Assembly (NCBI RefSeq): GCF_003012745.1
Contig: NZ_PXYK01000009.1
Coordinates: 124,001 to 188,000 of the forward strand
DNA: 64,000 nt
Direction of reading: 5' to 3'
Origin: Kumtagia ephedrae
Lineage (GTDB): Bacteria > Pseudomonadota > Alphaproteobacteria > Rhizobiales > Rhizobiaceae
Shown here: positions 19,108 through 64,000 of the stretch, piece after piece
Numbering within the stretch: position 1 is the stretch's first letter
Layout: the number at the start of each line of letters is the position of its first letter
Made by a program: the position numbers and the translations under genes
Notes under the pieces: model-generated
The model's input: only the letters and a program-made list of their open reading frames with translations
The model's database searches: none
What the model was told of the DNA's origin: nothing

Positions 19108-19540
19108 GGTTTTCCTCCGCATGCATAGCGAAGGCGGAGCTTGGGCAAAACGCCTCACGGGGAGTCCACCATGCCCCCGACGGTGCGAGCATACGCTCCA
19201 GTCGGCACCTTTGCCAACATTCTTTGTGAAATCACAGTCCTGCGCCCTATGGCTCGCCCGCACATTGCCACCATCATCCCCGAAGCTTACGCGCGCATGA
19301 CAATCCGTGGAGACCGCTTATCGCCTTGTGTGCGAACCTTGCGCCGTTCCGCCCCTTCCGCTATAGAGCCGCCACCCGCGCAGACACCCTTGGAGGCAAC
19401 GCGGGCGATCGCCGCCATCCTCGCATGGTCTTCCTTCCGGTTCCCGGAAGGGGCCACGCGCGAAGAAGGCGGCTTTCGACGTTTTTCGGGTTCCGCGCAG
19501 CGGTGCCCGGAGGCGCTCCAGCAACGTGAAAGGAAATGCC
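19108..19540. other. Divergent intergenic region chrBA / rplY leader
   Basis: No gene is supported in these 433 bases. The left part must hold the minus-strand chrBA promoter and the right part the rplY promoter and leader. A stable hairpin (CCTTCCGG 19433-19440 with CCGGAAGG 19444-19451, 3-base loop) lies 90 bases before the rplY start. Confidence 0.45.
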
Positions 19541-55439: not shown

Positions 55440-55681
55440 GCGAGATAGTCTCCCATTGATATTTTTTCGGTCGCAGCGTTCCGCCGCGTTTGGCTGCCGC
55501 AAGCCAAACACCATTCTCCTGCGGTTTCAAGCGCAATGGCCGCGCAACCTACGCCAAGCGGTTGTCAAATGGCGACAGATCGATTTCGTCTGACGACAAG
55601 GCAGTAGGCGAATCGTCTTTTATTCGCGGAAGGCGCCACATATATTCGCTGCCACCTGACGCCGGTCCCGGGGAGAGCATG

Positions 55682-56770
55682 ATGGCGACGCTGCAGAACT
55701 TCGATGCTGAAATTGCCAAGACGAAGCAGGTCGTGGAGGAGATGCGCTCCAAGATCGAACAGTCCGGCACGGTCCTCGACAAGCTCGCCACGACCGACAA
55801 GAAAATCGGCGCGGAGGATTTCGACATCGAGAACGCCCGCATCCAGGACGTTCTCAAGCAGCAGAAGGTGATGGAATCGAACATCGCCGATCTGATCATC
55901 GGGCTGGAGGACGCCACCAACGTCTTCGGCACCGAGTTCGAGAACATGAAGAGCTTCACCGGCTGGGAGAGTTTTGTCGGCATCTTCTCCGACGAGACCA
56001 AGCAGCGCATGCGTACCGATCGCGTGCGCAATATGTCGCTGGCCGGCAATCTGCAGGAACTGCTGTCCAAATCGGACACCATCGTCGGCATCCTGAAGGC
56101 GCAGAAGGAGGTGCTGACCGACCGCTACAAAACCTCGGAGACGAGCCTTGCCACCGTCATCGAGCGGCGCAAGAGCACCATGGCCAGCCTCGAGGCGGTG
56201 CAGAAGCGCATCGAGGAGTTGAACCCGCTGCTGCTCGACATCGAGAACAGGATCGCCGCCTCGACCAGCCAAAAGGAACGCACCGAACTGGAAGGCGAGC
56301 GCTCGAACCTCGCGACGGAATACAACGAGAAGCAGGCGAAGGAGCAGGAGTTGCTGGCCGAGAGCCAGACGCTGGAGCGTTACACCTCGATGTTCCAGAC
56401 GTTCGTCGATTCGCTCAACAACCAGATCGCCGCGCAGAACACGCTGATCAACAAGCTGACCATCGACACCGAGCAGCGCATCGTCCTCTACAAGGCGCTT
56501 GAGGACAGCTTGAAGACCGCCGCCCAGCAGGAGGTGGCGCACAAGATCAACACGCTGGGCAGCAAGGTGGACAACACCGCGGAGGAGACGATGGCCGGCA
56601 TCGGCGCGGCGGCGCAGAAGCACATCGGCGACCTCCTGGAGATGCATGAGAAGAACATGGTGGCCACCGCCGACATCCAGCGCCGCAAGAAGCTCGCCGA
56701 CGATGCCTTCGCGCGCCGGTTCGAGGATGTGCTGCGCAAGCACAACGCGTCCGATTACGTGCAGTCGTAG
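55682..56770 (+). CDS. Long coiled-coil protein, TelA-like
   Basis: A 362-residue, almost wholly helical protein with Leu/Glu/Lys heptads (about 1-90, 120-300), no signal peptide and a C-terminal stretch KHIGDLLEMHEKNMVATADI. It resembles the toxic-anion-resistance (TelA/KlaA) type in overall layout but I could not match a diagnostic motif, so function is unknown. ATG 55682 or 55679 follow GGGGAG. It opens a same-strand run to the end of the window that includes an AAA+ ATPase and membrane proteins. Confidence 0.6.
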   Translation: MATLQNFDAEIAKTKQVVEEMRSKIEQSGTVLDKLATTDKKIGAEDFDIENARIQDVLKQQKVMESNIADLIIGLEDATNVFGTEFENMKSFTGWESFVGIFSDETKQRMRTDRVRNMSLAGNLQELLSKSDTIVGILKAQKEVLTDRYKTSETSLATVIERRKSTMASLEAVQKRIEELNPLLLDIENRIAASTSQKERTELEGERSNLATEYNEKQAKEQELLAESQTLERYTSMFQTFVDSLNNQIAAQNTLINKLTIDTEQRIVLYKALEDSLKTAAQQEVAHKINTLGSKVDNTAEETMAGIGAAAQKHIGDLLEMHEKNMVATADIQRRKKLADDAFARRFEDVLRKHNASDYVQS

Positions 56771-56812
56771 TCTGCCAACCTTGTTGACGGGTCTGCCTTG
56801 AGTTTCTCCTCA

Positions 56813-56967
56813 TCCCCCTCTGTCCTGCCGGACATCTCCCCCTCGAGGGGGGAGATCAGCCGGCCGTTTTGGTTTCGGCAATCACCCACGTTGGAAACTG
56901 AGTGGCGTGCTCAAAACTGCCAATCCCCCTCCTTGAGGGGGAGATGTCCGGCAGCACAGAGGGGGGT
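56813..56967. repeat. Long imperfect inverted repeat (REP-like)
   Basis: The left arm (about 56813-56856) has CCCCCTCTGTCCTGCCGGAC and ATCTCCCCCTCGAGGGGG; the right arm (about 56920-56967) has the complement CCTTGAGGGGGAGATGTCCGG then CAGCACAGAGGGGG. The arms are separated by about 65 bases. It resembles dispersed inverted repeats of Mesorhizobium (recollection). It occupies most of the gap before the next gene. Confidence 0.7.
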
Positions 56968-57000
56968 GCGAAGGAGCTCAAGCCGACCGGAACACCTTGC

Positions 57001-58149
57001 ATGACAACCCCCGCCTCCGATCCGGCCGTCCGCTATTTCGACGCCATATCAGCCGCCCTCGACGGGCTTGGCGTCTTCATGCGCGACGATTCCTCGCCGC
57101 TCTATCGCCATGGCATCGTGGCAAAGGTAGTGGCCGATTACATCGCCCGGCTGGAGATATCCTTCGGCTGCTGGCGCAACCGCCTGGGTTTTCTCGACAA
57201 ATTCCGCATCTCGCGCGCCGAGAGCGGTTTTCCGGTGTTCCAGAACCTGCTGGAGCTGGAGAACGACCGGCGCACTGCCGACAAGCGGCTGGCGGCGATC
57301 CCGGAACCGGACGAACTGCGGGCCGAGATGGCCGACTTCATCCTGCGCCACAAGGAGTTCCCGGAGGCCCTGCAGCGCTCGATGGCCGAGCGCCTCTATC
57401 TCGAGGGCATCGGCGCGGGCGCGGTGTTCAGCCCGTTCAACCTTGCGCAGACCGTCAAGGTCTCGGTCAATCCGAAGACGTTCCGCCCCTACTACCTCGT
57501 CCACTGGGCAGCCTTCGACGGCAGCGCCAACCTGCCGCTGATCTACATGGCGACGATCGAGGATTCCTCGCCGGCGATGGTCGAGCAGCTGGTCGCCGAA
57601 AACGGCAAGCTCAACGAGAAGATCGATATCCCGCTGCCCGTCGACGGCCTGCTCAATCCTGAGCTGGCACACCGTTTCGACGACTTCACCGAGAAGAACT
57701 CGGCCTACACGCTGTCGCCGGCCACCATCGCCACCAATCTCGACAAGGATTTCGAGACGCTGCACCCCAAGCAGCTGCGCCGCGTCGTGCTCGGCCCCTT
57801 CTATTCGGCAGGGATCACCGAGAACAATTCGGTGGTGACCGAGGTACTGTCGAAGGTGCGCAAGCCGGAAAACGCCTGGCTGCTCACCTGGACGCAGCAG
57901 GAGGTGTTTTCGAAGGCCGAGAAGCCGGGACGCCGCGGCCTGTGGTCGAGCGAGAAGTCGACGCAGGAGTTCCACATCAACACCGACGACCTCGAGGCCG
58001 CGCGCCAGGGCGTGTCCAGCTACGAGAAGCACGCGCTGGTGCCGCACGAGGCCTATCAGGCGCTCTACGCCGCCGGCGAGGCGCGAAAGATCTTCGACGG
58101 CTACAAGGTGCACATCCTGTCGAAAGGACAGGTGGTGAGCGATGTGTGA
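57001..58149 (+). CDS. Uncharacterised 382-residue protein
   Basis: A 382-residue soluble protein with no recognised motif. The start MTTPASDPAVRYFDAISAAL leads into helical regions; DYIARLEISFGCWRNRLGFL and ELHPK-like segments suggest an alpha/beta fold. The centre has VHWAAFDGSANLPLIYMATI and the tail IFDGYKVHILSKGQVVSDV. No signal peptide or transmembrane helix is seen. It lies between the coiled-coil protein and Fic genes, on the same strand. ATG 57001 has only a weak site. Confidence 0.6.
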   Translation: MTTPASDPAVRYFDAISAALDGLGVFMRDDSSPLYRHGIVAKVVADYIARLEISFGCWRNRLGFLDKFRISRAESGFPVFQNLLELENDRRTADKRLAAIPEPDELRAEMADFILRHKEFPEALQRSMAERLYLEGIGAGAVFSPFNLAQTVKVSVNPKTFRPYYLVHWAAFDGSANLPLIYMATIEDSSPAMVEQLVAENGKLNEKIDIPLPVDGLLNPELAHRFDDFTEKNSAYTLSPATIATNLDKDFETLHPKQLRRVVLGPFYSAGITENNSVVTEVLSKVRKPENAWLLTWTQQEVFSKAEKPGRRGLWSSEKSTQEFHINTDDLEAARQGVSSYEKHALVPHEAYQALYAAGEARKIFDGYKVHILSKGQVVSDV

Positions 58150-58197
58150 GGGCGTGGCCACAATCGGCACAACCCACCATCTTGCGGGGTGGCCCGA

Positions 58198-58989
58198 ATG
58201 ATTTCGGTCGCGACCGTTTCCGCCAAGAAGCGGCAGCTCGATGCCCTCAGGAAGGCAATCCGACCCGGTGCGCTGGACGGTCTGGAACATAGTCAGCGGA
58301 TCGACATCACCTACACATCCAATGCCATAGAGGGCAACACGCTGACCGCCGGCGAAACGGCGCTGGTACTGGAAAAGGGCATAACGGTCAGCGGAAAACC
58401 GCTTCGGGATCACCTCGAGGCCATCGACCACGCGCAGGCGCTTGCCTGGGTGTTGGAGATCGCCGCTCAAACCGAAACGCCGGTCAGCGAGACAGATGTT
58501 CGCAACCTGCATCGGCTCGTCGTCGCAAAATCCAATCCCGACATCGCGGGGCGATACGCTGATCGTCCGCGTTACGTGAACACCGATGCAGGAAGCTACG
58601 ACTTTCCAGCGCCTATCGAGATTCCGGCGCTGATGCAGGCCTTTTGCAGTTGGCTGGCCGCAGAAAAGGATTCGCCTAAAGCCGCCTTTGAAGCCCACTT
58701 GCGGCTTGTCGGCATCCATCCGTTCAACGACGGCAACGGTCGTACGGCGCGTCTGCTCATGAATCTGGTTCTGGCGCGCGCCGGTTATCCGCCGATAGCC
58801 ATCCGCCCCGGGGACCGGCCGGCCTATATTTCGGCGCTTGAAGCGTCGCAGCGCGGCGAAGGCCATGCCGCATTTGACAAGCTGCTGTTTAGCCGGCTCG
58901 ACCAGACTTTGGACATGTATCTCGCCGCTGCGCAACAGGCGCAGGACGTGACCGCCACCTCCGGCAAGATTGTACCGATGAGGACGTGA
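58198..58989 (+). CDS. Fic family protein
   Basis: A 263-residue Fic enzyme, which transfers AMP or related groups onto proteins. The active-site motif is HPFNDGNGRTAR with catalytic His174 and the phosphate-binding loop. A class II N-terminal inhibitory helix motif is present as SNAIEGN (about 41-47), so the protein carries its own antitoxin-like helix. GTG 58189 is an alternative start. The stop overlaps the region just before the next start (ATG 58992, 2 bases after). It is same-strand with the AAA+ ATPase. Confidence 0.88.
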   Translation: MISVATVSAKKRQLDALRKAIRPGALDGLEHSQRIDITYTSNAIEGNTLTAGETALVLEKGITVSGKPLRDHLEAIDHAQALAWVLEIAAQTETPVSETDVRNLHRLVVAKSNPDIAGRYADRPRYVNTDAGSYDFPAPIEIPALMQAFCSWLAAEKDSPKAAFEAHLRLVGIHPFNDGNGRTARLLMNLVLARAGYPPIAIRPGDRPAYISALEASQRGEGHAAFDKLLFSRLDQTLDMYLAAAQQAQDVTATSGKIVPMRT

Positions 58990-58991
58990 CG

Positions 58992-60902
58992 ATGGACGCC
59001 GGCCTGACCACCATCCCCGAAGCCGACATCGAGAAACACCAGGCCACCGCGCAGTCGATGATCACGCGGGTGGTGGTGCTGGAGGATTCTTCGCGCGAAT
59101 CCGGCACCGCGCTTGCCGGCACCAACCGGCGCTTCGTCTCGACCGTTTCGACCGGCTCGGTACGGCGTACCCGCGAGGTCGAGTTGACCAGGACGGTCGG
59201 AGCCGTACGCCCCGGCGACCCGCTGATGTCGATCGGCCAGCACGCGCTTCTGTTCCGCGCCCGCCGCGGCATCGCCATCGCCCTGGCTGTCGCCGACGTC
59301 TTTGCCAGGGCAACCGACCTGGAGAGTCTGCAGGCCAGGAATGCGCGTGCGCCGCTGGAAGGCGAGGAAGCGGCGCAGTTCAAGAAACTTCTATCGGCCG
59401 CGGCTTACATATCGGCCTTCTCCTTCGCCTCCTATCTCTGGCAGCTCGTTGATTCCGACGGGGAGGCGCCGAATGACGTGGCCGAGCCGCATTTCGCCTT
59501 CGATACGGCGCAGGATGCGCTGAAGGCGCTGGTCGCCGGGCTAGACCACGCAGTTTCCGGCGTCAAGGACGAGGCCGACCTTGCCATCCGCGCCAAGGCT
59601 TTCGCCCGTGTCGCCATCGATGGTCTTCTGACACGAAAAGGCCGCTTCGACGGCATCGGCGCCTTCGAGGACGCCCATATCCGCATCGATGCGGACGATT
59701 TTACCCTCGACGGCTTCGATGTGGCGCCGGGACCCAAGACGAAACCGCTGGTGATGACCTTCAAGAAGCCGGAGGAGGTCGTCGGCAACCACATCGCGAA
59801 ATACCAGTCGGTGAAGCTGGCCAAGATGCTGATTGCCTACGACTTCGACCGGCAGCTCAACCCCTTCGTCGAGCTCGGCGGGTTTCTGTTCACCTTCATC
59901 GGCGACGGCGCGCCCGGTACCGGCAAGACGACGCTGATCCAGATGATCGCCGGGCTGGTCAACGGCTACGCGCAGGTGGCCGGCTATCCCTTTCACTACG
60001 AGAATTTCGGCGTCGACCAAATCTCCTCCTACCAGGGCAAATCGGGGCAGAACTGCCGCGCCTTCATCGACAACGTGCTGAACCCGCGCGCCATCGGCTT
60101 CGGCACCATCGACGACATCGACCAGGTGGCGGCGAAACGCTCCGACGATCGCGCGTCCGCCGGCCAGCACGAGATCACCGGCGTTCTGATGGCGGCCTTT
60201 TCCGGCGCCATGACGGTGATCCGCGGCAACTGCTCCTTCGGCATGTTTTCCAACTATCCGGAGAATGTCGACGACGCCCTGCGGCAGCGGGCCGGCGCCC
60301 GCTGGCTTGTCGACGGGCCGCAGACGAAAGACGACTATGTCGACATCTTCGTGCTGCTCGCCGGCAAGAACCACAAGATCCCGTTGGGCGACCACGACCT
60401 CTATGCCGCCCAGGAAATCCAGCGCGCCGTCGCCGAGGCCTATGAGGAGCATGCAAAGCCACAGGAAGACGGGCTGATGAAAGTCTACGAGCGCTTCATG
60501 AAGGAGAACGGCGCGCCGAAAACCATGGAAGACGTCGGGACCTATCTGCACCTGATCAAGGAGGCGGAGCCGCGCTTCACCGGCCGCGCCATCAAGAATG
60601 TCACCGACGCCATCAAGATGCGGGCAATGGACATCGAACTGCCAGACGACTGGTTCGAAAAGCCCGAAGCGTTCATGCACAAGGGCTATGATGACAAGAA
60701 AGCCATGATCGAGGAACTGCGCGGGCCGTTTTCGATGGACATGGTCATGCAGGAGATCAACCGCTACGCCGATTCCGAATTCCGCTATTCCGACAAGTCC
60801 GACGACGCCGCAGTGGGCAAGCTGATCCGCGACGCGAGGCTGCGCGAGCGGGCGGTGAAGGAGATGGAAGCGCTGAAGGCGCAGGGGTTGTGGAATGCTT
60901 GA
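58992..60902 (+). CDS. AAA+ ATPase, uncharacterised
   Basis: A 636-residue protein with a long N-terminal region (about 1-285), then an AAA+ core with Walker A FIGDGAPGTGKTTL (about 303-315), Walker B IGFGTIDDID (about 368-377), an Asn/Arg segment QRAGARWLVDGP, and helical C-terminus. The N-terminal region is predicted soluble. It may remodel or move the neighbouring large proteins. The start ATG 58992 follows GAGG with good spacing. It follows the Fic stop immediately. Confidence 0.78.
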   Translation: MDAGLTTIPEADIEKHQATAQSMITRVVVLEDSSRESGTALAGTNRRFVSTVSTGSVRRTREVELTRTVGAVRPGDPLMSIGQHALLFRARRGIAIALAVADVFARATDLESLQARNARAPLEGEEAAQFKKLLSAAAYISAFSFASYLWQLVDSDGEAPNDVAEPHFAFDTAQDALKALVAGLDHAVSGVKDEADLAIRAKAFARVAIDGLLTRKGRFDGIGAFEDAHIRIDADDFTLDGFDVAPGPKTKPLVMTFKKPEEVVGNHIAKYQSVKLAKMLIAYDFDRQLNPFVELGGFLFTFIGDGAPGTGKTTLIQMIAGLVNGYAQVAGYPFHYENFGVDQISSYQGKSGQNCRAFIDNVLNPRAIGFGTIDDIDQVAAKRSDDRASAGQHEITGVLMAAFSGAMTVIRGNCSFGMFSNYPENVDDALRQRAGARWLVDGPQTKDDYVDIFVLLAGKNHKIPLGDHDLYAAQEIQRAVAEAYEEHAKPQEDGLMKVYERFMKENGAPKTMEDVGTYLHLIKEAEPRFTGRAIKNVTDAIKMRAMDIELPDDWFEKPEAFMHKGYDDKKAMIEELRGPFSMDMVMQEINRYADSEFRYSDKSDDAAVGKLIRDARLRERAVKEMEALKAQGLWNA

Positions 60903-60928
60903 TGATTGAAGCCACGGCCGCCATCCAC

Positions 60929-60950
60929 TATGTCTAGCTAAGCTAGCTAG
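60929..60950 (+). promoter_or_regulatory. Operator-like palindrome of the phd/vapC operon
   Basis: TAGCTA-AGC-TAGCTA (within 60934-60950) lies just before the ribosome-binding site GGAGG of the Phd gene. A weak TTGAAG (60906-60911) / TATGTC (60929-60934) pair with 17-base spacing overlaps it. This fits autorepression by the antitoxin (inference). Confidence 0.5.
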
Positions 60951-60959
60951 GAGGCTGCG

Positions 60960-61199
60960 ATGCATGTTGGTACTTTTGAAGCCAAGAACCGACTCAGTTC
61001 ATTGTTGGACATGGTCGTGGCCGGTGAAGAGGTGACTATCACGCGCAACGGAAAACCTATCGCCCGTCTCGTACCTGTCGAAACGCGAGACCTGGAGAGC
61101 GCGCGCAGCGCTGCGGAGGGTTTAAGGGCAATTCGTGCGCGAAGCCGGCCCGGGCCTGAAAGCCTTAAAGACCTTGTCAATGAGGGGCGGCGGTATTGA
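60960..61199 (+). CDS. Phd/YefM-type antitoxin
   Basis: A 79-residue antitoxin: HVGTFEAKNRLSSLLDMVVA, GEEVTITRNGKPIARLVPVE is the Phd/YefM fold, and the C-terminal helix is Arg-rich. Its stop overlaps the toxin start (TTGA). A strong GGAGG lies seven bases before the ATG. The antitoxin binds both toxin and operator. Both genes are intact here, unlike the PIN and HicA loci. Confidence 0.87.
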   Translation: MHVGTFEAKNRLSSLLDMVVAGEEVTITRNGKPIARLVPVETRDLESARSAAEGLRAIRARSRPGPESLKDLVNEGRRY

Positions 61200-61612
61200 G
61201 CGTCGTGGTCGACAATTCGATGGCGCTGGCCTGGACGCTCATTGACGAACGCAGCGACGTGGCGGACACAATTCTTGAGAAGGTGATGCGCGAAGGTGGT
61301 CATGTCCCCTTCATCTTTCGCGCCGAGTTTGCGAACGGGCTGACGACGGCTGTCCGCCGCGACAGGATCGACCGCGAATCACGCTCGGAAGCGCTCGCAT
61401 TCATGGAGGCGCTGAAGCTGGTCCACGACATCGATGGTCGAGACCGTATGCATTCGGCGGTAGAACTCGCCGATGCACATGGATTGACGGTTTATGACGC
61501 GATTTATCTCGACCTTGCCCAACGGCGGCGTTTGCCGCTTGCCACTTTCGACAAGAAGCTCATCGCGGCCACGCACCGAGCTGGCATCCGTCTGGCCGTG
61601 CCTCAAACGTAG
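61196..61612 (+). CDS. vapC: VapC-type PIN-domain toxin
   Basis: A 138-residue PIN ribonuclease. Catalytic acids lie in VVVDNSMALAW, FRAEFANGL, VYDAIYLDLA and ATFDKKL. TTG 61196 is the start and overlaps the antitoxin stop by two bases. Length and pattern are typical of VapC. It would cut tRNA or rRNA. This complete pair sits between the AAA+ and the DUF6638-like genes, possibly a later insertion into that cluster. Confidence 0.87.
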   Translation: MSVVVDNSMALAWTLIDERSDVADTILEKVMREGGHVPFIFRAEFANGLTTAVRRDRIDRESRSEALAFMEALKLVHDIDGRDRMHSAVELADAHGLTVYDAIYLDLAQRRRLPLATFDKKLIAATHRAGIRLAVPQT

Positions 61613-61620
61613 GATTTGAC

Positions 61621-62907
61621 TTGGACCTCCTCCGCGACAACGAACTGATCTACGGCCGGCTGCTGCCGGTCGAAGAGCCGCATCTGGTCGAGCGCTACAA
61701 CAAGGCGTTGAAGGCCTTCGGCCTTCCGGTGACGAAACGGACGTCTTTCGACATCGACCGCGGCGGATTTTCTCCCCAGGTCGCCGAGGAGCTTGGCGAC
61801 CCGCTTTATCTCGATCCCAACGAGGTCAACCGCCGCTTCATCATCCTGACCCCGTCGCAGGTCGACCTGCCGGTGGTGCACACCGCCTTCTCCAACACCT
61901 CGCAGCTGCTCTACGAGTTCATGACCAGGAACCAGCGCGCCATCAACGCGCTGACAATCAAGGACGTGATCTACGGCGAGATCGAGGACTCCGTTAGCAA
62001 GGTCGAGGACATCGAGGATCTGCTGTCGATCAACCAGGTCGAGTTCCGGGTTCTGTCCGCCGAGGACGTGCTCGGCAAGGCGGCCGAGCTCGGAAAGCTG
62101 GTCGACCGGCTGAAACAGGAACCCGATGCCTGGCGTGACGACGCCATGCTGAAGCGCATGGTGGAACTCGCCAAGGTGTGCGGCGACATCCGCGAGAACG
62201 CGCTGGTGCCCGACCAGGTCATCTTTCGCCACAACGCCTTCTGGACCAGCCATTTCGGCGGTCTCTACGTCTTCGTCGATCCCGACATGACCACGGTGAT
62301 CAGCGCTCCGTCGGCGCCCGGCTTCCGCCGCTCCAGGCCGTGGCAGGTGAGCTACCTGTCGATCGCGGATGCCGAGCGGGTGTTCACCTTCCTCGCCTCG
62401 ACCGGCCGCATCGAGCTGCCGCGCGCCTCCTGGATCGAGACCTCGGGTTATCTCGAGCATCGCGCCGAGATGCTGATCGCCTCGCTGATCCACGAGGCGC
62501 AGCCGAACGCCGATTTTTCGAAGCTCGACAAGGTCTGGCTGCAGACCTGGATTCACGCCAACGCCGATCGCATCAACCGCGAGGGGACCTTTCCCTTCCT
62601 CAACGCCGCCAAGCGCGAGATCGCGCAATACGGGCAGCTGCGCATTGACGAGGTGTTGCCAAAGCATCGCTTCCTGGTGGTCCGCGCCAAACCCGACCAT
62701 CCGGACGCCTGGCTCACCAACCGGCTGATCTCGGATTTCGTGTCCTATGACTTCCTGTCGCGCTACGTCTTCAACAAGCAGGGCTTCTACCGCGACTATC
62801 AGAACTATACGGAAAGCTTCCGCAGCTATGTTGTGGATACGCTGAAAACCTCATATCTCAAGGACAAGGTGGGGTTGCGCAGCCGGCTCTACGGGCTGAC
62901 GGACTGA
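61621..62907 (+). CDS. DUF6638-like protein
   Basis: A 428-residue soluble protein beginning LRDNELIYGRLLPVEEPHLV, with RRFIILTPSQVDLPVVH and LLYEFMTRNQRAIN in the centre and PNADFSKLDKVWLQTWIHAN later. I recall it as the DUF6638 family, found in Rhizobiales; no function is known. TTG 61621 is the start. It follows vapC by eight bases and precedes the DUF2333 gene by 50. No signal peptide or membrane helix is seen. Confidence 0.65.
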   Translation: MDLLRDNELIYGRLLPVEEPHLVERYNKALKAFGLPVTKRTSFDIDRGGFSPQVAEELGDPLYLDPNEVNRRFIILTPSQVDLPVVHTAFSNTSQLLYEFMTRNQRAINALTIKDVIYGEIEDSVSKVEDIEDLLSINQVEFRVLSAEDVLGKAAELGKLVDRLKQEPDAWRDDAMLKRMVELAKVCGDIRENALVPDQVIFRHNAFWTSHFGGLYVFVDPDMTTVISAPSAPGFRRSRPWQVSYLSIADAERVFTFLASTGRIELPRASWIETSGYLEHRAEMLIASLIHEAQPNADFSKLDKVWLQTWIHANADRINREGTFPFLNAAKREIAQYGQLRIDEVLPKHRFLVVRAKPDHPDAWLTNRLISDFVSYDFLSRYVFNKQGFYRDYQNYTESFRSYVVDTLKTSYLKDKVGLRSRLYGLTD

Positions 62908-62957
62908 CGCCGAACCGCGGCCATCCGGCCGGTGCCGCCTGAGGGAGTGACTGCGGG

Positions 62958-64000
62958 ATGCTCGATCCGATCGTGAACTTCTTCACCTGGGTCTTCCAGA
63001 TGATCGGCCGCGGCATCGGCCTGGTCGTCGGCGTCCTGCTGTGGCCGTTCATGTGGCTTGGCCGCTGGTACGTGCAGCGCGGCTGGATCCTCAAGGCCGT
63101 CGTCGGCGCCGGGCTCGTCCTGCTGGTCGCCCTCTACGGCTACTTCATCTGGAACACGCAGGCCTGGACGAACTTCAACCCCGACTACGTTGCCAATTAC
63201 ACGTTCGACAATGTCTCGGCCGGACAGGAGACTTCGGCCGCCAACGCCACCTCGCGGACCTGCGCGCGTTCGGCGATCGCCGACATCACCGCCGACCTGA
63301 CCGACTTCAACGTGAACCAGAACGCCTGGATCTCGTCGATGATCCTCTACAAGCTCGGCCTGTTCGGGATGGACTGGGACAGGACTCCCTTCCTCGACAA
63401 CAAGGCGTCATTCCAGCGCGGCATCCACGAGGCGGTACGCCGCACCACCACCGAACTCGCCGACAATCTGGGACGCGTGCGCACCACCTCGCAGATCGAT
63501 TCCAACCTGCAGAGCGCCCGCGGCAACGCCCAGTTCGACGAATACACCTGGTATTTCGGCCTGAGCCCGTTCGGCCCGAAGACGCCGACGCCGAGCTACT
63601 ATCGCGCGATCGTCACCGACCTGCGCTCCTTCAACGACCGACTGTCGCGCTGCGAGGCAGTGTTCGACGCGCGCGCCGACAACCTCATCCAGTATCTCGA
63701 CCGCATTTCCAGCGCCCTCGGCGACACCTCCGCCATCCTGCGCGAGCGTTCGGAGAACTACAACAACGGCTGGTTCGACACTCGCGCCGACGATCGCTTC
63801 TGGTTCGCCTACGGCCAGCTCTACGCCTATTACGGCCTGCTCAAGGGCGCGCAGGCGGATTTCGAGCAGGTCCTGGCCGAGCGCCATCTCAACGCGCTGT
63901 GGGACACGATGGAGCAGCAGGCACGCTCGGCGCTGCGCATCCAGCCGCTGATCATCGCCAATGGCCGGGAGGACGGCTGGCTGACCCCGACCCACCTCGC
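62958..64000 (+). CDS. DUF2333 family membrane protein, 5' part
   Basis: The frame is open from ATG 62958 to the window edge, so at least 347 residues are visible and the end is missing. Two N-terminal helices (about 10-60; FQMIGRGIGLVVGVLLWPFM and AVVGAGLVLLVALYGYFIW) precede a large periplasmic region with NVNQNAWISSMILYKLGLFG and FDTRADDRFWFAYGQLYAYY. I recognise DUF2333, conserved in Alphaproteobacteria and unknown in function. It is the last gene in the same-strand run with the AAA+ ATPase. Confidence 0.8.
   Translation, partial: MLDPIVNFFTWVFQMIGRGIGLVVGVLLWPFMWLGRWYVQRGWILKAVVGAGLVLLVALYGYFIWNTQAWTNFNPDYVANYTFDNVSAGQETSAANATSRTCARSAIADITADLTDFNVNQNAWISSMILYKLGLFGMDWDRTPFLDNKASFQRGIHEAVRRTTTELADNLGRVRTTSQIDSNLQSARGNAQFDEYTWYFGLSPFGPKTPTPSYYRAIVTDLRSFNDRLSRCEAVFDARADNLIQYLDRISSALGDTSAILRERSENYNNGWFDTRADDRFWFAYGQLYAYYGLLKGAQADFEQVLAERHLNALWDTMEQQARSALRIQPLIIANGREDGWLTPTHL

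Follow-up and report, generated by a model that had tools for sequence, protein, structure and literature searches.

The end of the window raises the question of whether its genes encode one system and, if so, of what kind; the window is the whole 64,000-nt stretch analyzed here (positions 124001–188000 of a Kumtagia ephedrae contig that ends at 189022, in a genome of 6.1 Mb). An earlier note had proposed that five large proteins work together, namely a coiled-coil protein (CC), a protein without assigned family (U382), an AAA+ ATPase, a DUF6638 protein and a DUF2333 membrane protein. The gene run was confirmed, since all eight open frames were present on one strand (Table 1) and the names AAA, DUF6638, DUF2333, Fic, Phd and PIN were all matched in Pfam. 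That four of the five, CC, U382, AAA+ and DUF6638 (hereafter the core), form one inheritance unit is well supported. It is quite possible, at slightly less than an even chance, that these four are parts of one soluble ATP-driven protein-remodelling machine that is inherited, transferred and lost as a block.

First, the co-occurrence of the genes was determined in 289 genomes drawn from the class. The seven genomes matched by the DUF6638 profile were also those matched by the profiles of CC, U382 and AAA+; for one gene pair, the hypergeometric chance of sharing the same 7 of 289 genomes is 3e-14, a value that ignores genome relatedness. A single additional, marginal match of the AAA+ profile (G178, expectation value (E) of 7.5e-4 over 82 positions) was ascribed to an unrelated AAA module. 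In the six genomes that remain when the window's own is set aside, the four genes were consecutive and in the order of the window, with 28–55% identity, adjacent apart from inserted genes (hereafter cargo). Second, close relatives were searched. DUF6638 was present in 12 of 31 genomes, the window's own included, and the 11 other stretches showed CC, U382, AAA+, DUF6638 and DUF2333 in one order and on one strand (8 of 11 whole, 3 cut by contig ends). Fic was found in none of these 11 stretches and Phd-VapC in four. Third, species genomes of Bacteria and Archaea were scanned, and the full run was present in 76 of the 80 best loci, with the remaining 4 being cut by contig ends. These 80 loci, all of the arrangement with DUF2333 found in Rhizobiaceae (hereafter Rhizobiaceae type), ranked highest among at least 495 stretches that matched at E up to 1e-3 and were checked in part, and the best-matching named genomes included Mesorhizobium, Aminobacter, Aquamicrobium, Phyllobacterium, Nitratireductor, Shinella and Ensifer, which places the genome of the window in the Rhizobiaceae type as well. 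Thus, as both the relatives and the best loci indicate, the four core genes stay together when Fic and VapBC are absent.

A phylum-wide draw gave the same picture. AAA+ occurred in 22 of 259 genomes, five of which were shared with the class draw. DUF6638 was found in all 17 other AAA+-positive genomes, never farther than about 800 bases from AAA+, and in none of the 17 AAA+-negative genomes checked, which were mostly of one family and order. All six genomes of this draw that were read had the four core genes in order. Neither a description of the four-gene system nor a mention of DUF6638 was found in open-licence PubMed Central text, which was searched for the family names, for Psp/ESCRT, Ter/TelA and embedded toxin-antitoxin genes as topics, and for S. 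meliloti locus tags; DUF2333 occurred there in one paper and DUF1523 in four.

DUF2333 is a constant neighbour in Rhizobiaceae-type loci, at 3–222 bases from DUF6638 (88 loci), yet it lies outside the core unit. Its profile matched 87 of the 289 genomes of the class draw: 3 of 7 core carriers (in two of the three on another contig) vs. 84 of 282 genomes without the core (p 0.43). Among 19 genomes of the family, DUF2333 was present in 15 and AAA+ in 12; G002, G006 and G017 had kept DUF2333, near choXWV in each, with the core absent. Around DUF2333 genes not linked to the core (ten stretches), the recurrent neighbours resembled NfuA (7/10), TrpS (6), MurJ (5) and a universal-stress protein (5), names that represent a reading of the sequences by eye. 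Since DUF2333 is common without the core and has recurrent neighbours of its own, it leads a life of its own. The five-gene system was dropped because DUF2333 shows no association with the four core genes; co-localization and a shared profile hold for CC, U382, AAA+ and DUF6638, and it is DUF2333 that fails the profile test. In the window, the DUF2333 frame is cut by the window end, with its stop 70 bases further along the contig, and two hydrophobic segments were recognized by a simple hydropathy count. As a separate observation, the DUF2333 family comprises unstudied membrane proteins in a stable housekeeping neighbourhood (L184–L189).

Table 1. Gene run at the end of the window and the element upstream of it (window coordinates)
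Feature	Position	Strand	Family match or remark
Promoter-like element CTTT-N18-CATATATTCG upstream of CC	55617..55648	+	9/11 positions of presumed RpoH-like consensus; weak
CC, core gene 1, coiled-coil protein of 362 residues	55682..56770	+	no family assigned
U382, core gene 2, 382 residues	57001..58149	+	no Pfam, NCBIfam, PADLOC or PHROGs family
Fic-domain protein, cargo between U382 and AAA+	58189..58989	+	PF02661, E 1.1e-20
AAA+ ATPase, core gene 3, classical AAA type	58992..60902	+	PF00004, E 3.4e-10, 40.9 bits vs. cut-off 21.2
Phd-type antitoxin, cargo	60960..61199	+	PF02604, E 8.8e-12
PIN-domain VapC-like toxin, cargo	61196..61612	+	PF01850, E 1.3e-11
DUF6638 protein, core gene 4, start TTG at 61621	61621..62907	+	PF20343, E 8.4e-76, 256 bits vs. 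cut-off 27
DUF2333 membrane protein, accessory neighbour	62958..64000	+	PF10095, E 2.6e-18, 66.5 bits vs. cut-off 22 (in-window part)

The loss of the unit was followed in G002, a genome of the window's own genus. There, DUF2333 lies between choX and the formate-tetrahydrofolate ligase gene, and the four core genes are gone. The choX-DUF2333 interval of 485 bases (L194, G002:C3, 9222–9706) contains a stretch that resembles the sequence preceding CC (top local score of 31 among the loci tried; best of 20 shuffles 15). Near DUF2333, a 13-residue scrap equals the DUF6638 C-terminus at 10 of 13 positions. For the rest of DUF6638 and for CC, nothing above shuffles was found in this interval. It is likely rather than certain that the core was lost from G002 as a block and that DUF2333 was left behind.

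Two further branches carry the core with different neighbours. In the six distant genomes of the class draw (6/6), a DUF1523 membrane protein follows DUF6638 (PF07509 in the two scanned), and in five of the six an 88-residue protein with two hydrophobic segments is present. These genomes belong to family codes f32, f102 and f146, of which f32 is presumably, as a guess only, Rhodobacterales-like. CC was 38–42% identical in these six DUF1523-type genomes and 77–96% identical in eight close relatives. Among the six genomes read from the phylum draw, five had the DUF1523 arrangement, including G359 from another class and G509 from the window's order, and one (L177) had DUF2333. That G359 and G509 carry the DUF1523 version suggests a possible transfer of the block. 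As an observation on G359 itself (L172, 3147–16087), the core and DUF1523 stand between putative ectoine degradation genes, which suggests that the block was inserted into that cluster.

The third branch was found among plasmid records. Large replicons of Sinorhizobium, Shinella and Rhizobium, of which some are possibly chromosomes labelled as plasmids, carried AAA+ relatives, as did, at about 39% identity, four Vibrio records of 0.88–0.94 Mb, two of which were read. In Vibrio vulnificus, CC, U382, AAA+ and DUF6638 are followed by mfd (profile E of 6e-97, 5e-78, 2e-205 and 3e-80, respectively, in a six-protein search), and annotation and gene lengths indicate the same run, then mfd, in the V. 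parahaemolyticus record. The operon replicons of V. vulnificus and V. parahaemolyticus (L197, L200; 0.88–0.93 Mb) were typed as non-mobilizable. Trees of the four proteins with 26 taxa all placed the Rhizobiaceae type apart from Vibrio and the DUF1523 type, and their largely congruent branches, with pairwise distance correlations of 0.95–0.97, support one unit; in two of the four trees, the rows of the DUF1523 type formed a clade without Vibrio.

The earlier note had read an ATPase combined with a coiled coil and a membrane protein that has a large periplasmic domain as the layout of an envelope-remodelling or stress machine. This layout was not conserved, as the membrane protein differs between the branches and none was recognized beside the Vibrio core: the six Vibrio genes tested gave neither a DUF2333 or DUF1523 profile match nor a transmembrane segment by a simple hydropathy count. 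By the same count, no membrane segment was found in the core proteins, which leaves the envelope reading without support, and the core would thus consist of four predicted soluble proteins in all three branches. DUF6638, DUF2333 and DUF1523 are families assigned here by profile matches over cut-off, and these family names carry no function.

A membrane-associated stress machine, with CC coating the inner membrane, the ATPase remodelling it by ESCRT-III/Vps4 or Psp logic and DUF2333 or DUF1523 acting as envelope sensor, is regarded as unlikely. It would account for the membrane proteins that adjoin the core in both alphaproteobacterial branches, but not for a membrane partner that varies and was not recognized among the six Vibrio genes, nor for three of the 19 genomes of the family keeping DUF2333 while lacking the core, nor for the missing association of DUF2333 with the core in the class draw. 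A regulatory hint comes from S. meliloti, in which SMc02733 contains a fragment bound by ChvI (PMC3687685), although the screen in question recovered mostly intragenic fragments. To judge by gene numbering, SMc02733 may lie in or near the operon: shmR is SMc02726 (PMC2848241), and strain Ak57 carries a gene for a TonB-dependent hemoglobin-type receptor downstream of the operon. A stress role for the core is a plausible conjecture.

The precedent for such a machine is the PspA/Snf7 (ESCRT-III) family, in which, like CC, a long helical coiled coil is encoded beside a classical AAA+ ATPase and sometimes membrane proteins (as described in PMC11237479). CC differs from it in having no profile match: PspA_IM30 and Snf7 were unmatched in Pfam up to E 0.1 in three CC proteins and up to E 0.05 in the Vibrio CC. 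For the two further soluble proteins found here, we know of no counterpart in PspA/Snf7 systems. Fold comparison was uninformative in this respect. The AlphaFold2 model of CC was all-helical with a mean pLDDT of 68, comprising a long hairpin (residues ~131–240) at good local confidence and poor confidence elsewhere, and Foldseek returned nothing at E up to 0.001. PspA, Snf7 and TelA chains were absent among the fold matches listed, which excludes nothing. A likeness of CC to ESCRT-III/PspA is, on these models, neither shown nor excluded.

Two other relationships of CC were tried and rejected. Behind a chemoreceptor, pore-forming proteins accounted for many of the highest-ranked Foldseek rows, at TM-scores of about 0.2–0.35 and none at E up to 0.001; this was taken as generic helical likeness, and in VIA syntaxins, STATs and others scored as high as or higher than pore formers. 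TelA, a helical coiled-coil protein of similar length, shows no sequence relationship to CC, so that the earlier label "TelA-like" was withdrawn: PF05816 was unmatched up to E 0.1 in three CC proteins, and hhalign against six real TelA proteins gave a probability of 0.3%. Real TelA genes were found elsewhere in 6 of 11 core-carrying genomes searched. In the libraries searched (Pfam, NCBIfam, PADLOC, PHROGs), CC had sub-threshold family matches only and U382 had none.

U382 was modelled with higher confidence (AlphaFold2 pLDDT 91.4, pTM 0.90), as a helical N-terminal part plus a mixed sheet. For residues ~157–344, T-fold proteins occupied 34 of 50 VIA rows, as counted by reading titles and with many rows representing one protein. 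The best match was urate oxidase (Z 5.6, root-mean-square deviation 3.9, 124 residues), followed at lower scores by dihydroneopterin aldolase, PTPS and GTP cyclohydrolase I, which we take to be T-fold enzymes. The T-fold is a beta-beta-alpha-alpha-beta-beta sheet that forms a tunnel oligomer; the element order of the U382 model fits it, and Z 5.6 is below the level at which such matches are trustworthy. Foldseek found nothing at E up to 0.001 in the PDB or among viral models, and neither DUF6638 nor U382 had a PDB relative by sequence (best E of 0.43 and 0.095, respectively). A relationship of U382 to DUF6638 was rejected (hhalign probability 0.3%).

These matches bear on the possibility that the genes encode co-regulated steps of one process without a single complex, for example with U382 as a T-fold enzyme and AAA+ as its activase. 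AAA+ activases encoded beside their enzyme exist, CbbX being one, and the best alignments of U382 are with T-fold enzymes. However, a Z below 8 may reflect a common arrangement only, Foldseek gave no support, and no metabolic gene common to the flanks of the three branches was noticed in a non-systematic inspection. This explanation is considered quite unlikely.

The ATPase itself was conserved in the features of the classical AAA family. In 57 rows (55 non-redundant loci plus the window and Vibrio, the window's genome being probably included twice), the Walker A motif GDGxPGTGKT, the sensor 1 Asn, the arginines and the sensor 2 GR motif were retained; Walker A, the second region of homology with sensor 1 Asn and arginines, and sensor 2 GR are shared with CDC48, TRIP13/Pch2, Vps4 and i-AAA. 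The Walker B motif was DD, with Asp as second acidic residue, in 57 of 57 rows, whereas classical AAA proteins usually have DE. This difference would make an ordinary fast ATPase less likely and would leave membership of the AAA proteins intact. About 290 residues before and about 80–200 after the matched AAA module had no Pfam match. The only PDB relative by sequence at E up to 0.01 was the ATPase domain of an i-AAA protease (E 6.6e-4). The TRIP13 model of PADLOC matched weakly in 11 of 11 members, over the AAA module only (best E 9e-6); no HORMA match was listed among the other proteins scanned with Pfam. MIT domains were unmatched in Pfam up to E 0.1 in three AAA+ proteins.

How a soluble remodelling machine might be built from these parts can be outlined as follows. 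The AAA+ protein would form a ring and act slowly or conditionally, with the DD of Walker B either slowing hydrolysis or making the ATPase conditional. The further steps are given from the most to the least confident. The four proteins would act together, and the ATPase would act on one of its three partners. CC would be the main client or a scaffold, forming an extended structure for the ring to load or disassemble; it is the most likely candidate because of its length and because, in close relatives, it is better conserved than the other three (mean column identity of 86% vs. 75, 80 and 72%). U382 and DUF6638 might serve as dedicated adaptors or as clients. DUF2333 in the Rhizobiaceae type and DUF1523, usually with the 88-residue protein, in the second alphaproteobacterial branch would be lineage-specific add-ons and possible tethers.

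Several points weigh against this reading. The role of CC as client is proposed by analogy only, the confidence of the CC model is low, and its fold matches are generic for helical bundles. Genes of one operon may serve a common pathway without contact between their products. The pairwise distance correlations among the four proteins (0.95–0.97 over 26 taxa) are in part due to the deep split alone, and were 0.63–0.93 within the 14 Rhizobiaceae-type rows and 0.86–0.93 within the 11 DUF1523-type rows. The four trees differ, with normalized Robinson-Foulds distances of 0.30–0.65 (0.99 for shuffled labels). Finally, the DUF6638 relic in G002 (score of 50; best of 500 shuffles 40) is short, and its shuffle control does not fully account for the use of three frames and 15 references.

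A bolder version of the remodelling machine, which seems somewhat unlikely, would see in the locus an undescribed, self-contained four-protein AAA+ machine that spread as one transferable block over Alpha- and Gammaproteobacteria. In it, a DD ATPase would dismantle a private coiled-coil polymer with two private adaptors, one possibly of T-fold, and Vps4/ESCRT-III or TRIP13 logic would have been realized with unrelated parts.

The genes that interrupt the core were analyzed by junction, with loci in which core genes are cut by contig ends excluded from the gap counts. Gaps of more than 400 bases were found at CC/U382 in 3 of 94 loci, at U382/AAA+ in 10 of 94, at AAA+/DUF6638 in 48 of 96 and at DUF6638/DUF2333 in 0 of 88. 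The AAA+/DUF6638 junction (n = 102) was empty in 53 loci and held DUF559 in 27, Phd-VapC in 10, ParE-HTH in 4, PLD-like genes in 2 and other genes in 6. The U382/AAA+ junction (n = 100) was empty in 90 and held Fic in 7, the window's included, DUF559 in 1 and other genes in 2. The family names of the cargo were taken from representatives; the loci include the window's genome and at least two genomes twice (L022/L111, L025/L122), and the 10 Phd-VapC loci represent at most 8 genomes. The AAA+/DUF6638 junction (60903–61620 in the window; also L017–L026, L077–L156 and L198) is an insertion hot spot for small cassettes. Thus, the genes named in the earlier note as the only interruptions are indeed present in the window; both are passengers, and the junction fillers vary between loci. 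In S. meliloti Ak57, this junction contains an endonuclease-domain gene plus an insertion sequence on the other strand, and in one DUF1523-type locus (L037, 8305–9129) a DUF3825 gene (PF12873, E 1.8e-8).

The orientation of classified cargo matched that of the operon in 49 of 51 cases, a count that omits eight loci with unclassified cargo; both exceptions were PLD-like genes. Same-strand cargo is as expected if downstream transcription matters. Fic, Phd-VapC, ParE-HTH and DUF559 would then be cassettes settled inside the operon that mostly let transcription run on. Alternatively, the toxin-antitoxin cassettes might guard the operon by punishing its loss, in the manner in which CreTA guards CRISPR-Cas. 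The type II pairs at the AAA+/DUF6638 junction (14 of 102 loci, each in the orientation of the operon) would suit such a guard; the 53 empty junctions and the predominance of DUF559 (27 of 102) would not, nor would the frequent gain and loss of cargo, for which parsimony on the AAA+ tree required at least 34 changes of state, or 23 for filled vs. empty (no shuffled control). A guarding role is therefore rated as very unlikely.

The cargo also bears on an anti-phage defence or conflict system, patchy, transferable and with toxin-like genes within, which appears improbable. The core is patchy (7/289), the large Vibrio replicons are recorded as plasmids, Fic (matching PADLOC PDC-S04), Phd-VapC and DUF559 lie inside the operon, and the AAA+ module has its weak TRIP13 match. 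On the other hand, PADLOC models went unmatched by CC, U382 and DUF6638 up to E 0.01, the genomic position is stable in many Rhizobiaceae-type loci, with ChoX and formate-tetrahydrofolate ligase genes as recurrent neighbours, and the identity of CC in its eight close relatives is not expected of a defence gene. A phage origin was rejected as well: 50,697 phage records gave no match, the pattern scan of viral contigs gave no confirmed relative, and U382 had no match to viral models at E up to 0.001. The Fic protein of the window (58189–58989) has a HPFNDGNGRTAR core plus a SNAIEGN stretch that fits the motif with which class II Fic enzymes inhibit themselves, and could thus be an AMP transferase under its own control.

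In the genomic setting, ChoX was present in 80 of 104 stretches of all types and in 0 of 11 of the DUF1523 type, and the gene that follows in 7 of 13 stretches was identified, in one locus, as formate-tetrahydrofolate ligase. A link to compatible solutes, suggested by ChoX and ectoine-like neighbours, was rejected and taken as local synteny. Upstream of CC, an RpoH-like element matching at least 9 of 11 positions with a spacer of 18 was the top-scoring one in 61 of the 87 regions of the Rhizobiaceae type, compared with 1 of 11 regions of the DUF1523 type. At 9/11 positions it was found in 64 of 98 regions, vs. 12.4 expected from Markov-resampled controls. This is only a lead, as the regions are closely related and the consensus is a presumed one. 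The EcfG general-stress promoter was rejected: it occurred in 0 of 106 upstream regions vs. 0.6 expected, and relaxed scoring did not exceed the controls. Elsewhere in the window, an Rfam chrB-b cis-regulatory RNA was observed at 19134–19179 on the minus strand (37.7 bits vs. cut-off 36.5).

Three of the four core proteins are without known function, and two of these, CC and U382, are without a family in the libraries searched. If the four form one machine, a function would be given to several hundred loci (495 stretches in one scan, not all checked), which span rhizobia including S. meliloti, a second alphaproteobacterial branch and Vibrio, and a set of hypothetical proteins would become a testable ATPase system. 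The invariant DD of Walker B in a classical AAA protein poses a precise biochemical question. Moreover, the operon as a hot spot for toxin-antitoxin, Fic and DUF559 cassettes bears on the spread of such genes.

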